From: Candidatus Saccharimonadota bacterium
Lineage (GTDB): Bacteria; Patescibacteriota; Saccharimonadia; Saccharimonadales; UBA4665
Direction of reading: 5' to 3'
DNA length: 64,000 nucleotides
Assembly (NCBI GenBank): GCA_024635495.1
Contig: JAGXIT010000004.1
Location: 186,001 to 250,000 of the forward strand
The notes beneath the pieces were generated by a model. The model saw only the letters and a list, made by a program, of their open reading frames with translations. It did no database searches and was not told where the DNA came from. Below, one piece after another: positions 31,623 to 38,892 of this stretch (its first letter is position 1; every line of letters begins with the position of its first letter). The translations under genes and the position numbers were made by a program.

Positions 31623-32192
31623 CTATTTTACGAGTTTTTTATAACAGTTTGCACACAAGGATTCGTAGTCGACATTATCTTGACCATCTATAGCCACCTG
31701 TTCACCTTCGGCGGTAAATATTCCATTAATCTTGCGACCATTAAAGACCGCCTTCTTGCCGCATCGACAAATAGTTTTTATCTCTTGGATATCATGAGCA
31801 ATCTCCAATAGACGAGATGCGCCCGGAAAACCAATGGTTTGGAAATCGGTTCGAAGCCCGTACGCCATAAACGGGATATTCTTTTCAATAGAAAGCCAAA
31901 AAATCTCATCAACTTGTTTTGGGGTTAAAAACTGCGCCTCATCGATAAGTACACATGCGATATCTCGTAAATCACCAAGCTGTTTAGTAACAGACTCGGC
32001 CGGACCAACAAGTACATCAACTTCTCTGTCGATTCCAAGCCGTGAGATGATCTTCGTATCACCTTTCGTGTCAGTTGTGGGCTTCATTAAAAGAACGTGC
32101 ATGCCGCGTTCTTCATAATTGTGAGCTACTTGCATGATAGCAGTCGTTTTACCGCTATTCATTGCACTAAAACGAAAGTATAGTTTTGCCAT
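31623..32192 (-). CDS. tdk: Thymidine kinase
   Basis: FRFSAMNSGKTT, VLIDEAQFL, YGLRTDF, ICRCGKKA...LCANCY. Confidence 0.95.
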   Translation of the reverse strand: MAKLYFRFSAMNSGKTTAIMQVAHNYEERGMHVLLMKPTTDTKGDTKIISRLGIDREVDVLVGPAESVTKQLGDLRDIACVLIDEAQFLTPKQVDEIFWLSIEKNIPFMAYGLRTDFQTIGFPGASRLLEIAHDIQEIKTICRCGKKAVFNGRKINGIFTAEGEQVAIDGQDNVDYESLCANCYKKLVK

Positions 32193-34058: not shown

Positions 34059-35093
34059 TTAACTGATTTTTGCAAGAACTGATTTGGCTGCAGCAAGTTT
34101 ACCTAAGGCAAGTCTATTACGCGGGTATTCATCAAGTATGTCGTTGTACTCCGCGATGGCTTTTGAAAGAAACTCAGTATCTTTTTGTTGAACACCAATC
34201 TTTCGTAATTGGTCTGCGGGCCATAGCGCGAGATTTATGTTTGGAATCCCCTCATAACTTTCACTAACATCTGCAATTACTTGCTGAGCGAGAGTGTTAT
34301 CACCCTTTTTCGCAAGGTGTAAAACAAGACTACCGAGCTGTTTTGCTTTCTGGATATTGCGCGGATCAACCTCTGGATATATGCCCTTCATGAAATGTAA
34401 TTCAGAAGCAGCTGCCTCGTACTTTCCTCCTTCCAGAAAAAGATACAAGCGGTTGCGCCTCTCGATAATCTGACGTCCAAGAGTGGGGTTATAGAGGGCT
34501 ACAGTTAGAATATGGTTAAAATATTCCTTCCGTTCGTTAATAGGACGCTTTTCCAGGCGCTCCATCTCAGAACCATGGCTTAACCATGGATTAACAGTAA
34601 CCAATTCTTCAAATGAACGATTAAACCTTGAGTTTTGGACCACAAAACTACTGTCCATCTTAGCGATGGCTCGACGATTTTCTTCAATCTGTGCTGGAAC
34701 ACTCATGAGTTGTGTCTGTGTAAAAGCGCCTGTAATATTCCCATTGAAATCGGGTGAGTGGGCATCAATAAGATGAGCTAGGGAACCATTATTCACTGCA
34801 ATCGTGAAGACATGGTCATTCGCAAAAGCAACGTAGTGCGGCACTTTTGCAATTTCTAGCGCTTCAGAAAGCACGATATTGCTACCGTAGCAATTACTCT
34901 GCTGAGCTCTGCTGATAGCGTCAGGGCTTATTTCGATAGTACCGGCTCGTGCCCGCATGGGGGTAATACCTGCTCTCACAATATTACATACATCCTGTGC
35001 ACGCTCAAAAACATCTGGGTCATTACAGGCATTAACCGCTTCAAGCATTGTCGGTTCATCTTCGTTTGGAAGTTTGAGTCTATCAATATACAT
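34059..35093 (-). CDS. Protein with transglutaminase-like Cys-His-Asp N-terminus and TPR-like C-terminus
   Basis: SNCYGSNIVLSEALEIAKVPHYVAFANDHVFTIAVNN..LIDAHSP; TPR-like helical C-terminal repeats. Confidence 0.5.
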   Translation of the reverse strand: MYIDRLKLPNEDEPTMLEAVNACNDPDVFERAQDVCNIVRAGITPMRARAGTIEISPDAISRAQQSNCYGSNIVLSEALEIAKVPHYVAFANDHVFTIAVNNGSLAHLIDAHSPDFNGNITGAFTQTQLMSVPAQIEENRRAIAKMDSSFVVQNSRFNRSFEELVTVNPWLSHGSEMERLEKRPINERKEYFNHILTVALYNPTLGRQIIERRNRLYLFLEGGKYEAAASELHFMKGIYPEVDPRNIQKAKQLGSLVLHLAKKGDNTLAQQVIADVSESYEGIPNINLALWPADQLRKIGVQQKDTEFLSKAIAEYNDILDEYPRNRLALGKLAAAKSVLAKIS

Positions 35094-35202
35094 AGGTTTC
35101 TTACGATAAAAAATCGGCTATTTACGCCGAAGCATTTATATATAAAATACCCATGACGTCTCCATGTCAATATTTGAGAAGAGAATGGCGTATACTTTGG
35201 TC

Positions 35203-35688
35203 ATGATATCTATGATTGCTGCAGTGAGTGAAAACGGTGTGATTGCACGTAACGGTGCTCTTCCTTGGCGCGTACCCACGGATGTACAATATTTTTTAGA
35301 CAAAACACTCGGAAAAACAGTACTTACCGGGCGTAAAACCTTTGAAACTATAGTCGCAAAACGTGGTAGTTCGTTTCAGTCTGATAGACGAGTGTATGTC
35401 CTGACCCGTGACGTTAGCTATACCTGTTCAGATGTCACGATTCTCCATGACATAGCGGATGTCGATACTACCGGCGACGTGTGGGTGGTGGGTGGTGGTG
35501 AGATATACGGTGAAATGATTGAGGATGCCGACAGGCTCTACATCACCGAAATACATACAGTAGTAGACGGAGATACGTACTTTCCTGCTATTGATAAGTC
35601 AGTTTGGCATGAAATCTCCCGTGAGCCGCACAAAGCAGATACACAGAACGAGTTTGATTTCGACTTCATCATTTACGAAAGAAAATAG
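35203..35688 (+). CDS. folA: Dihydrofolate reductase
   Basis: MISMIAAVSENGVIARNGALPWRVPTDVQYFLDKTLGKTVLTGRKTFE, VWVVGGGEIY; ATG at 35203. Confidence 0.95.
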   Translation: MISMIAAVSENGVIARNGALPWRVPTDVQYFLDKTLGKTVLTGRKTFETIVAKRGSSFQSDRRVYVLTRDVSYTCSDVTILHDIADVDTTGDVWVVGGGEIYGEMIEDADRLYITEIHTVVDGDTYFPAIDKSVWHEISREPHKADTQNEFDFDFIIYERK

Positions 35689-38031
35689 TTATTTAGTATC
35701 AAGATTGGTGAGTTTGTACTGCGTGTATCTTTCGGCAGCAAGTCTAGTTAGCTCTGGATCTTCGTCTTTGTTCACAAACTTCATACCCGCCGCAATGAGT
35801 GGGTGTACTTCTGCAATCTTCTCGTACATTTCATAGACAAGCTTGCGATAGCCAGGGTGCCCCTGAGGAGCAGTACGCAGCTCAATGAAGTGAAAAGCTT
35901 CGCGGGCATTCATAGTGACACGCCAACGCATCTTGTGGCCGAGAAGCGTCGCGTATTGAGCCTCAAGAGCATAACCCGCAGCCTGGAGTTGGCTATAGAG
36001 ATCAAGACTGATATCGAAACAACGCTCGTACTCATCACTCAAGCCAGCCTCTTCGACAAGTTTTGGTACGTCATAGCCGTGACGAGGTGTTAATTGCTGC
36101 CAACGTAGGTCATCGACAATACGGTGACGTTGCAGGTCACGAAAAATGCCGTAGTCACACATAAGATCGAAAGTGTAATGTATGTTTTCGAGGGCTCGTC
36201 CCGGGCGGTGGCGACGATTGAGCCGCTCGCCGATGTAACTCTTGAGGATTGATTCCTTCTTCGCGTAGGGCAACGCATCGGTTGCAGTTCTTATATCTGC
36301 CATCGATAGCTCGCTGTGGTCGTAGAGAATATCTGCGCTTACCTCTAGCTCATTACGTGGAACGTAAGACACAAGCTCTACCGCAGATGAGTCGCTCGTG
36401 GCATGTTTTGTCGACAATACACTATCTGCTATGTCCTTGACTGAATCGCGAGTATTTGCACGGTATGCGACCAATGCTCCACCACGCTCCGGTTTGTCGG
36501 CTCGCTCGAGGAAAGCTGGAATGACCTTCCGTGCCTCTTTGAGAATAGCTTTGCCAGTCTTTTGTGCTTCTGGCAGTTCGTCACTCAGCAAGTGCATGAT
36601 TAGGCTCTCGAGTGCTTGCCCGGAAGCATAAATGCCCACGGTCGATTTGGTTGCGACTGGCAGTATAGGCCTAATTGCATCACAGGCTTGAGCCTTCGTG
36701 GCGCTTTTCCACGCACCATCGTGCTCTTCTTGAGGTGTTTTCGAGTTTATGCGGACATATTCCGTCAGTTTCTTAACGAGGTCAGAGTATATCTCGAAGA
36801 TTGCATCCATCGACTGGACGTAACGTATTCTCACGTCTTTTTTGAGGCCGGTCGGTACGTGATAACGATAGTGACCTTGAGCGTCCTTTTGATCGAAATA
36901 TATATAGCGAGTTGACTGCTCGAGATAAGCGGCCAGGCGCCCCCACTCAAGCTTCTTCGTTAGAAGGTTGCTCGCGTTCTCAACCACGATGTGCTGGCCC
37001 ACAAGTTGTTGAACGGAATCATCGCCGTAGGCTGTGATGACGCGGTGCAGGAGTTGGCCATCCTTATCTTCTTTGCCAATAAACTCATCAAGCAGTGTGA
37101 TGCGCATATCATCACCCCGACGACTTAGCCGGGCCATGGCGGCCGCAACCGTAAGCGGCGCGATATTATTCGTGAAGGCATAGACGTTATCAGTCGTGTT
37201 CGTAACAAGTGGAGCAAGTGTTGCACGACCACTATCAGTAATCTCGTTGAGTCCTTGTGAGTTTTTAATGACCAGTGCGTTGTCTACGGAATTTTGTTCC
37301 GATGTTGCGGTGGCCACCGGCGGCTCTATAACGGGGGTAGTCTTTGCTGGTGGATTTGCAGCCAGGACTTCGGCAATGGATTGCGGCTCAGATTTTTGTC
37401 TTGTTGCCATTGCTGAACTTACGTGTCCCCATACTTCTTTGAATACTTCTTCGATACTGCCTGTTGCATGCACGACCGGTAAATTACGCTGCTTAGCTTC
37501 CCAGAGGTAGCCTGCTCGAACTCGTTCGTAGAAACCTTCGTCGAGGTTACCGAACTTGCCATGGCTCACTTTGCGTGCTCCTAATCGGTCGACGAGCACT
37601 TGTACTGGCGCATCGAGTACAACCATCATATCTGGCTGCATGTCACCAACGGCAAAGTCAATAATCTCATTAATGCGTTTGTAATCAGTAATGTCGCCAC
37701 GGCCATAATACTGATTTGCAAGCGTTGTCAGGTAGCTTCTATCAACCAGGCACGTGACCCCATTTGCGACGGCGTTACGAATAACCTCCAGTGACTGCAC
37801 TCGTGCAGCATTAAAGAGTAGGACTTCAGTTTCGGTCTTAGTGGGATAACGAGGATCAAGTAGTATGTGTCGAAGCGCTCGGGCGGTTAAATCATTTTGG
37901 CTGTCTGGTTCGCGCATAATCTTCACCGGTAAGCCAGCTTTTCTGAGCATGTCACCGACCATATTCACCATAGTCGTTTTACCGACACCTTCAGCACCTT
38001 CTATGACTATGTATTTACCAATTTGGGTCAT
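35689..38031 (-). CDS. Fusion: dTMP kinase (N-term) + double ThyX-like thymidylate synthase (C-term)
   Basis: IVIEGAEGVGKTTMV, REPD, DRSYLTT (Tmk); QHIVVENASNLLTKKLEWGRLAAYLEQSTRY and YGIFRDLQRHRIVDDLRWQQLTPRHGY (ThyX-like). Confidence 0.88.
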   Translation of the reverse strand: MTQIGKYIVIEGAEGVGKTTMVNMVGDMLRKAGLPVKIMREPDSQNDLTARALRHILLDPRYPTKTETEVLLFNAARVQSLEVIRNAVANGVTCLVDRSYLTTLANQYYGRGDITDYKRINEIIDFAVGDMQPDMMVVLDAPVQVLVDRLGARKVSHGKFGNLDEGFYERVRAGYLWEAKQRNLPVVHATGSIEEVFKEVWGHVSSAMATRQKSEPQSIAEVLAANPPAKTTPVIEPPVATATSEQNSVDNALVIKNSQGLNEITDSGRATLAPLVTNTTDNVYAFTNNIAPLTVAAAMARLSRRGDDMRITLLDEFIGKEDKDGQLLHRVITAYGDDSVQQLVGQHIVVENASNLLTKKLEWGRLAAYLEQSTRYIYFDQKDAQGHYRYHVPTGLKKDVRIRYVQSMDAIFEIYSDLVKKLTEYVRINSKTPQEEHDGAWKSATKAQACDAIRPILPVATKSTVGIYASGQALESLIMHLLSDELPEAQKTGKAILKEARKVIPAFLERADKPERGGALVAYRANTRDSVKDIADSVLSTKHATSDSSAVELVSYVPRNELEVSADILYDHSELSMADIRTATDALPYAKKESILKSYIGERLNRRHRPGRALENIHYTFDLMCDYGIFRDLQRHRIVDDLRWQQLTPRHGYDVPKLVEEAGLSDEYERCFDISLDLYSQLQAAGYALEAQYATLLGHKMRWRVTMNAREAFHFIELRTAPQGHPGYRKLVYEMYEKIAEVHPLIAAGMKFVNKDEDPELTRLAAERYTQYKLTNLDTK

Positions 38032-38055: not shown

Positions 38056-38769
38056 TCAGTCATAACTCATGCCTTCGATTTTTGTGGGCATACGTCGCTC
38101 GTCACGGTATGCTTGCGGCAGCATGAGACTTGGCGACCAGCTTTTGATAAGTGTATCGATATCTGTGCCTGTCTGGTACTTGCCACTGAAGCCACCGTCA
38201 CGACCGGCACCGTAATTGCCATCGACTTCGCCGGTTTCGTGGAAGATGATCTGTGCAATGCGTTCGCCTACGGGCAAGACGACCATTTCACGATTGTTCA
38301 GGTTGTAGATTTCAAGGGTTAGACGGTTGATATAGCCTGGATCAATCCAGCCTGCATCGAAGCAGACTGCCACGCCATTGCGTCCCCAACTACTTCGGCT
38401 GCGTACTTCACAAGCTCCTGGTGGTTTAATGCCGAAAAATTCATGTGTATGTGCGAGAATCCTCTCGCCCGGTTTGAGCGCAATGACTGGATGATCGAGC
38501 GGAATGCCCTCTATTGGTCGGTGCCCATTCAGCTTCGCCCACTCACCATGCGCCATGGCTCTATACGGTCCATCGAAATATCGTTCAACATCTTCGCGGT
38601 CAAATGGGTTATATATCGTCCGCTCATTAGCAGGCTCAATTCTGTAAAAATAATAACCAAGTGTTACGTCGAGACTAGCATGACTGACATGTTTGTCATC
38701 AAAAGGATGGCATACGATGTGGTTGTCATTGATAGCTTGCCGAATCTGTTTATTGCTGTAGACGCTCAT
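38056..38769 (-). CDS. dcd: dCTP deaminase / dUTPase-family protein
   Basis: EVRSRSSWGRNGVAVCFDAGWIDPGYINRLTLEIYNLN, LPVGERIAQIIF; ATG at 38769. Confidence 0.93.
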   Translation of the reverse strand: MSVYSNKQIRQAINDNHIVCHPFDDKHVSHASLDVTLGYYFYRIEPANERTIYNPFDREDVERYFDGPYRAMAHGEWAKLNGHRPIEGIPLDHPVIALKPGERILAHTHEFFGIKPPGACEVRSRSSWGRNGVAVCFDAGWIDPGYINRLTLEIYNLNNREMVVLPVGERIAQIIFHETGEVDGNYGAGRDGGFSGKYQTGTDIDTLIKSWSPSLMLPQAYRDERRMPTKIEGMSYD

Positions 38770-38855
38770 AGTGAAGCGAAACCCTCCATTACCTCTTGAT
38801 GAGCTCCCACCTGCCCTGTTGCTCTCTATTGTAAATTTCAAAAAGATATATAGCA

Positions 38856-38892
38856 ATACAGTCGGCACAATTTTACAACTGGCCGACTGTAT
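38856..38892. terminator. Hairpin with 11-bp arms after rplA
   Basis: ATACAGTCGGC-N15-GCCGACTGTAT. Confidence 0.65.

Follow-up and report, generated by a model that had tools for sequence, protein, structure and literature searches.

A thymidylate kinase fused to a tandem ThyX with a predicted split active site in a Saccharimonadales genome

Results

The window analysed here is a stretch of 64,000 nucleotides from a Candidatus Saccharimonadota bacterium (Patescibacteriota; contig JAGXIT010000004.1 of assembly GCA_024635495.1, forward-strand positions 186,001 to 250,000), and the element in question is a single reverse-strand open reading frame (ORF) that starts with ATG, has no internal stop codon and joins, in this order, an intact thymidylate kinase (Tmk), a linker with predicted disorder and a pair of ThyX (Thy1) domains in one protein (Table 1). 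Pfam placed Thymidylate_kin (PF02223) at residues 10-199 (E 1.4e-25) and Thy1 over two stretches (E 1.2e-37; 130 bits against a gathering score of 24.8), and in a Thy1 profile scan of the whole genome the halves scored 75.4 and 55.4 bits, each alone above the Pfam cut-off. The kinase part also passes the dTMP_kinase equivalog cut-off of TIGR00041 (97.5 vs 83.25 bits) and has the P-loop and DR motif of a Tmk. A preliminary description of this DNA had read the first ~200 residues as a deoxythymidine monophosphate (dTMP) kinase followed by two ThyX-like segments, and these scores bear out both assignments. Profile searches of the 820-kb genome, which is 99.8% complete, for a second ThyX, a ThyA or a second Tmk found none; on these scans we reject the idea that another gene encodes a canonical synthase, and judged by profile the fusion protein is the genome's only thymidylate synthase candidate as well as its only Tmk.

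Table 1. Features of the fusion gene and its neighbours. Positions are those of the window; residues are those of the fusion protein; R78, H79 and similar labels follow Thermotoga (Tm) ThyX.
Feature	Position	Strand	Remarks
tmk::thyX::thyX fusion ORF	35689..38031	-	780 residues; complete fused homologues in relatives
Thymidylate kinase domain, residues 1-210	37402..38031	-	P-loop EGAEGVGKTT and DRS motif intact; sole PF02223 match in genome
Tmk P-loop, residues 12-20	37972..37998	-	From sequence; G12, G17, K18 invariant in alignment A3
Pro/Ala-rich linker, residues 211-265	37237..37401	-	Poorly conserved; predicted disordered at ~211-248 (pLDDT < 50)
ThyX half 1, residues 266-545	36397..37236	-	E/S/R/Y loop and R147 side of predicted site; Pfam Thy1
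Half-1 motif WGRLAAYLEQSTRY, residues 363-376	36904..36945	-	R80, E86, S88, R90, Y91 equivalents kept; R78, H79 lost
R454, equivalent of Tm R147	36670..36672	-	Invariant in half 1; half 2 has Q or another residue
ThyX half 2, residues 546-780	35692..36396	-	R78/H79/R80, N163/R165 and R174 side; Pfam Thy1
Half-2 RHR, residues 635-637	36121..36129	-	S88/R90/Y91 positions replaced by Q645/L647/T648
Half-2 NAR...ELR, residues 708-719	35875..35910	-	N163, R165, R174 equivalents
dcd, dCTP deaminase-like	38056..38868	-	PF22769, E 8.2e-35; makes dUTP/dUMP, ahead of the synthase step
folA, dihydrofolate reductase	35164..35688	+	PF00186, E 1.1e-44
Thymidine kinase	31623..32192	-	PF00265, E 2.6e-36; salvage route to dTMP; 3.5 kb from fusion gene

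The ThyX motif RHRxxSxNExSxRY does not occur within one domain of the fusion protein, but is divided between the two halves, as it is in the tandem relatives. We aligned 145 tandem ThyX, of which 65, including the window protein, come from the host phylum and were found by Pfam or by similarity, and 80 come from a pattern scan of other genomes; the scan pattern overlaps the half-1 motif, making that part of the comparison partly circular, while the half-2 residues and the set of 65 are free of this circularity. Thermotoga numbers were assigned by motif spacing rather than by structure alignment. Across many phyla, half 1 retains R80, E86, S88, R90, Y91 and R147 almost without exception (S88 and R90 each in 65/65 and 80/80), with H79 lost and R78 kept in one of the 65 and missing from the residue list of the 80. 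Half 2 retains R78, H79, R80, N163, R165 and R174 (the last in 63/65 and 79/80, where half 1 mostly has L or M, or another residue) and has lost S88 (1/65 and 0/80), R90, Y91 and R147, the last position being Q or other. Half 1 of the window's branch also lacks N163 and R165, which many shorter tandems retain. Single-domain ThyX proteins of the host phylum, by comparison, carry both residue sets together in one motif. As aligned, the two halves are exact complements of each other, and this holds generally for the tandem ThyX proteins compared. For segment 1 the preliminary description was right that EQSTRY is kept but not that RHR is entirely lost, the second arginine being retained (R365, equivalent to Tm R80); its account of segment 2, where RHR stays within QRHRIVDDLRWQQLT at residues 634-648 and the rest of the motif is gone, agrees with the alignment.

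ThyX is a homotetramer of 222 symmetry whose active sites lie where subunits meet. The division follows the subunit roles seen in solved ThyX structures. In Mycobacterium tuberculosis (Mtb) ThyX, deoxyuridine monophosphate (dUMP) is held by R95 and R199 of chain A (Tm R78, R174) together with S105, R107 and Y108 of chain C (Tm S88, R90, Y91) (PMC6514825), and in the PBCV-1 enzyme monomer A provides Gln75 and Arg182, and monomer B Ser88 and Gln89 (PMC3498832). In the tandem, the chain-A-type set lies in half 2 and the partner-chain set in half 1. Because the two sets sit on different subunits in the solved enzymes and on different halves here, the tandem would retain one of the two reciprocal composite sites possible in a pseudodimer, the other having decayed. 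An AlphaFold2 model of the tandem (predicted local distance difference test, pLDDT, 92.1; predicted template-modelling score, pTM, 0.88) found its best fold matches in the PDB with the M. tuberculosis and T. maritima ThyX, and its TM-scores against solved ThyX chains, 0.61-0.73 when normalised by the target, correspond to the ThyX fold; fold and profile thus agree in placing the C-terminal region in ThyX. The full-length model, built with 30 sequences, reached pTM 0.60, with a high-confidence Tmk fold, a disordered linker and a low-confidence half-1 loop. Mean conservation is 0.26 in the linker vs 0.66-0.78 in the domains.

Of 60 relatives, the host genome among them, 40 encode the whole Tmk-ThyX-ThyX protein in one intact ORF, six others hold an ORF truncated by a contig end, and four carry an intact but unfused tandem. 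Fusion to Tmk is a trait at the level of the order. The recurrence of complete ORFs in 40 of 60 relatives is the reason for rejecting an assembly join, a frame artefact or chance. The preliminary description had named beforehand what would speak against it, and what we found was a C-terminal part inside ThyX, no separate canonical ThyX or ThyA, and no assembly join.

ThyX and the unrelated synthase ThyA avoid each other. Within the phylum, 287 genomes were compared: Thy1 matches occur in 100 and a strong ThyA in 123, and both in only two; ThyA is thus found in 2/100 genomes with ThyX vs 121/187 without (Fisher p 3e-29). Within the 60 relatives, nine have full-length ThyA, and the tandem is intact in 48 of the 51 lacking it (a few contig-cut) vs two of the nine having it (p 1e-5). 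These distributions suggest that ThyX replaces ThyA in the genomes that have ThyX. Eight ThyA genomes retain a gene derived from the tandem, and in all of them thyA is found at a distance of 0.8-6.8 kb from it; in six of them (G001, G003, G006, G010, G035, G037) the ThyX part has been stripped of both halves' residue sets, and in the other two (G014, G017) thyA lies beside a tandem with its residues still intact. Three of the six degenerate cases belong to one genus, therefore the number of independent losses is ~4. G013, which has no ThyA, carries a degenerate fused copy (half-1 motif YYEQSTKE, no RHR) together with a separate intact tandem of 538 residues (L042, L041). One relative, G057 (97% complete), matched neither ThyX nor ThyA at the thresholds used.

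In five of the degenerate loci (L033, L034 and L035 in G001, G003 and G006; L036 and L037 in G010 and G035), the gene encodes a Tmk with a ThyX-derived tail that has no catalytic residues and is still partly conserved (LTPRYGY, EAQYATLLGH). We propose that this tail is a pseudoenzyme domain retained in ThyA-bearing genomes. As a separate observation, proteins of ~211 residues at G010:C1:64517, G014:C33:2406 and G049:C1:56831 match only ThyA positions 105-226 (middle to C-terminal); these occur beside a full ThyA or an intact ThyX.

Turning to the neighbourhood, coordinates and Pfam matches uphold the arrangement given in the preliminary description, with dcd upstream of the fusion gene on the same strand and folA facing its 3' end; folA and the fusion gene are convergent and their stop codons abut. 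Between folA and an rplJ-like gene, at 34059-35093 on the reverse strand, lies a gene for a 344-residue protein with no Pfam match.

Discussion

We consider it very probable that the fusion protein is a bifunctional dTMP synthase and dTMP kinase with composite ThyX sites, catalysis, stoichiometry and the placement of the site in one chain or across two being the parts of this reading that we infer. The C-terminal two-thirds would form a ThyX pseudodimer working as a flavin-dependent thymidylate synthase, in which half 2 would give the flavin adenine dinucleotide (FAD) and dUMP side of the composite site (R78, H79, R80, N163, R165, R174), and the loop and phosphate side would come from half 1 (E86, S88, R90, Y91, R147). 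The reciprocal site, formed by the half-1 RHR with the half-2 ESR, would have decayed, so that two chains would form a ThyX-like pseudo-tetramer with two sites, not four. The N-terminal third, presumably the cell's only dTMP kinase and carried on a flexible linker, would phosphorylate the product of the synthase. A composite site had already been suggested in the preliminary description, and the idea is strengthened by the match of the halves to subunit roles and by the way in which both residue sets go missing together in genomes with ThyA.

Several points weigh against this assignment. The protein misses the thyX equivalog cut-off of TIGR02170 (63.5 vs 87.9 bits); two residues of canonical ThyX are missing from this branch in alignments read by eye, namely the equivalent of H53 (from both halves) and that of the dUMP-binding Mtb R87 (from half 1); the exclusion statistics ignore shared ancestry; and the nearby thymidine kinase gene offers a possible salvage route to dTMP. 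Since the one-chain motif is absent and the equivalog cut-off is missed, we call the protein a tandem, split-site variant, belonging to the Thy1 superfamily and fold and, on present sequence evidence, most likely working like ThyX.

The composite site might also form in trans between two chains, a variant that would leave the catalytic claim unchanged and in favour of which PMC11940539 is cited; the single-chain model sets the halves together with high confidence, as judged over the whole model, and we regard assembly in trans as possible but doubtful. Much less probable is that the split site acts in a related modification of uracil C5, such as hydroxymethylation, or methylation of uridine monophosphate (UMP) as in PolB. 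PMC5003785 describes PolB as a ThyX-fold UMP/dUMP methylase, PDB entry 4p5b is among the fold matches of the tandem, and the residues at the H53 and Mtb R87 positions are not the canonical ones; the fusion or adjacency to Tmk, the neighbouring dcd and the nearby thyA where ThyX has decayed, on the other hand, all point to dTMP as the product. Equally improbable, in our judgement, is a non-catalytic role of the ThyX halves as scaffold or regulatory domain for Tmk with dTMP coming from thymidine salvage, for although the nearby thymidine kinase gene and the persistence of residue-less ThyX-derived domains on Tmk in L033-L037 would suit it, both residue sets are near-invariant in the 145 proteins and vanish jointly in the copies of ThyA genomes, ThyX and ThyA hardly ever share a genome, and a strong thymidine kinase match occurs in only ~5/60 relatives, so that this route is missing from most.

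If the protein is indeed a synthase joined to a kinase, one may ask whether dTMP is channelled from one to the other. This is speculation, and at pTM 0.60 we regard the full-length model as uninformative on domain docking or channelling. A linker predicted to be flexible speaks less for a fixed tunnel than for co-localisation and a fixed stoichiometry.

As for the origin of the fusion, tmk is often a separate gene adjoining thyX or tandem thyX in other parts of the phylum and among DPANN archaea, which gives the fusion the look of a merger of neighbouring genes. The fused kinase is a divergent Tmk in several families (e.g. L027, L052), from which it would follow that the kinase domain there has strongly diverged or been replaced. 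Genome scans found tandem ThyX in Patescibacteria, Woesearchaeota, Aenigmatarchaeota, Diapherotrites, Nanoarchaeota, Chloroflexota, Methylomirabilota, Acidobacteria, Armatimonadota and others. A domain tree separates the main family's halves 1 from its halves 2, the halves of the window protein falling with those of other tandems, a topology that fits a single ancient duplication for this family. Four divergent tandems (L075, L077, L080 and L109, in G267, G063, G316 and G214) stand apart in the tree, with SQRY in half 1 of L075 and L077 and RHR in half 2; G214 also has ThyA. These may stem from a second duplication, independent of the first, that led to a similar split. Taken together, we lean towards the view that an obligate two-domain ThyX, with its site divided once in deep time, is a second, very widespread synthase architecture found in much of Patescibacteria, DPANN archaea and Chloroflexota, fused in this order to Tmk as an enzyme leading from dUMP to deoxythymidine diphosphate (dTDP) and reduced to a pseudoenzyme on Tmk where ThyA arrived.

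The protein shares the Thy1 family and fold with canonical ThyX (T. maritima TM0449, M. tuberculosis ThyX) and, over both halves combined, the same catalytic residues; it differs in having two domains per chain, complementary half-motifs and a fused Tmk. The thymidylate synthase of cyanophage Ma-LMM01 (gp020, 491 residues) and gp50 of the Tunturiibacter phage Tunturi_5 are tandems with the same split (GQERSTRY, then RHR), but have no Tmk domain and show ~25% identity. Plasmid-borne FAD-dependent thymidylate synthases of cultured bacteria (Euzebya, Miltoncostaea, Parabacteroides, Bacillus licheniformis) give tandem-length matches at 25-40% identity, and no record among the plasmid sequences reached 80% coverage of the fusion protein. 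A fusion of consecutive enzymes of the dTMP pathway is known from the protist DHFR-TS (dihydrofolate reductase-thymidylate synthase), where a ThyA-type synthase is joined to DHFR, as opposed to ThyX to Tmk here. That tandem ThyX might already be known, as the preliminary description allowed, proved correct: a passage in Valas and Bourne 2009 (PMC3224940) states that ThyX of most Chloroflexi carries a domain duplication, "not characterized", and in our scans Chloroflexota, DPANN, Patescibacteria and others carry the same family. That passage mentions neither the residue split nor a Tmk fusion, and it is the only description that we found in the open-access papers searched on tandem ThyX, Tmk fusion and thymidylate synthesis in the candidate phyla radiation (CPR). 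We found no account of the complementary split, its universality, the Tmk fusion or the ThyA-linked decay in these papers, although such absence is no proof.

The fusion protein would provide a defined source of dTMP for candidate-phyla genomes without a canonical thymidylate synthase, and its architecture explains why the standard synthase model (TIGR02170) misses it. It would also be a clean case of complementary degeneration after internal duplication, in which a symmetric multi-subunit site became fixed in one functional orientation, with the repeated co-occurrence of ThyA and decay serving as a natural control for loss of constraint. A single obligatory type of site would perhaps help to separate the subunit roles in the ThyX mechanism.

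Two minor observations may be added. A scan of IMG/VR found only one relative. In G052, a gene for a ThyX-like protein with a NTHRVFSRNSASSRA motif (L102:910-1833) adjoins rplA, the spot taken by dcd and the fusion gene in the window, and a similar gene is present in L113 (G252).
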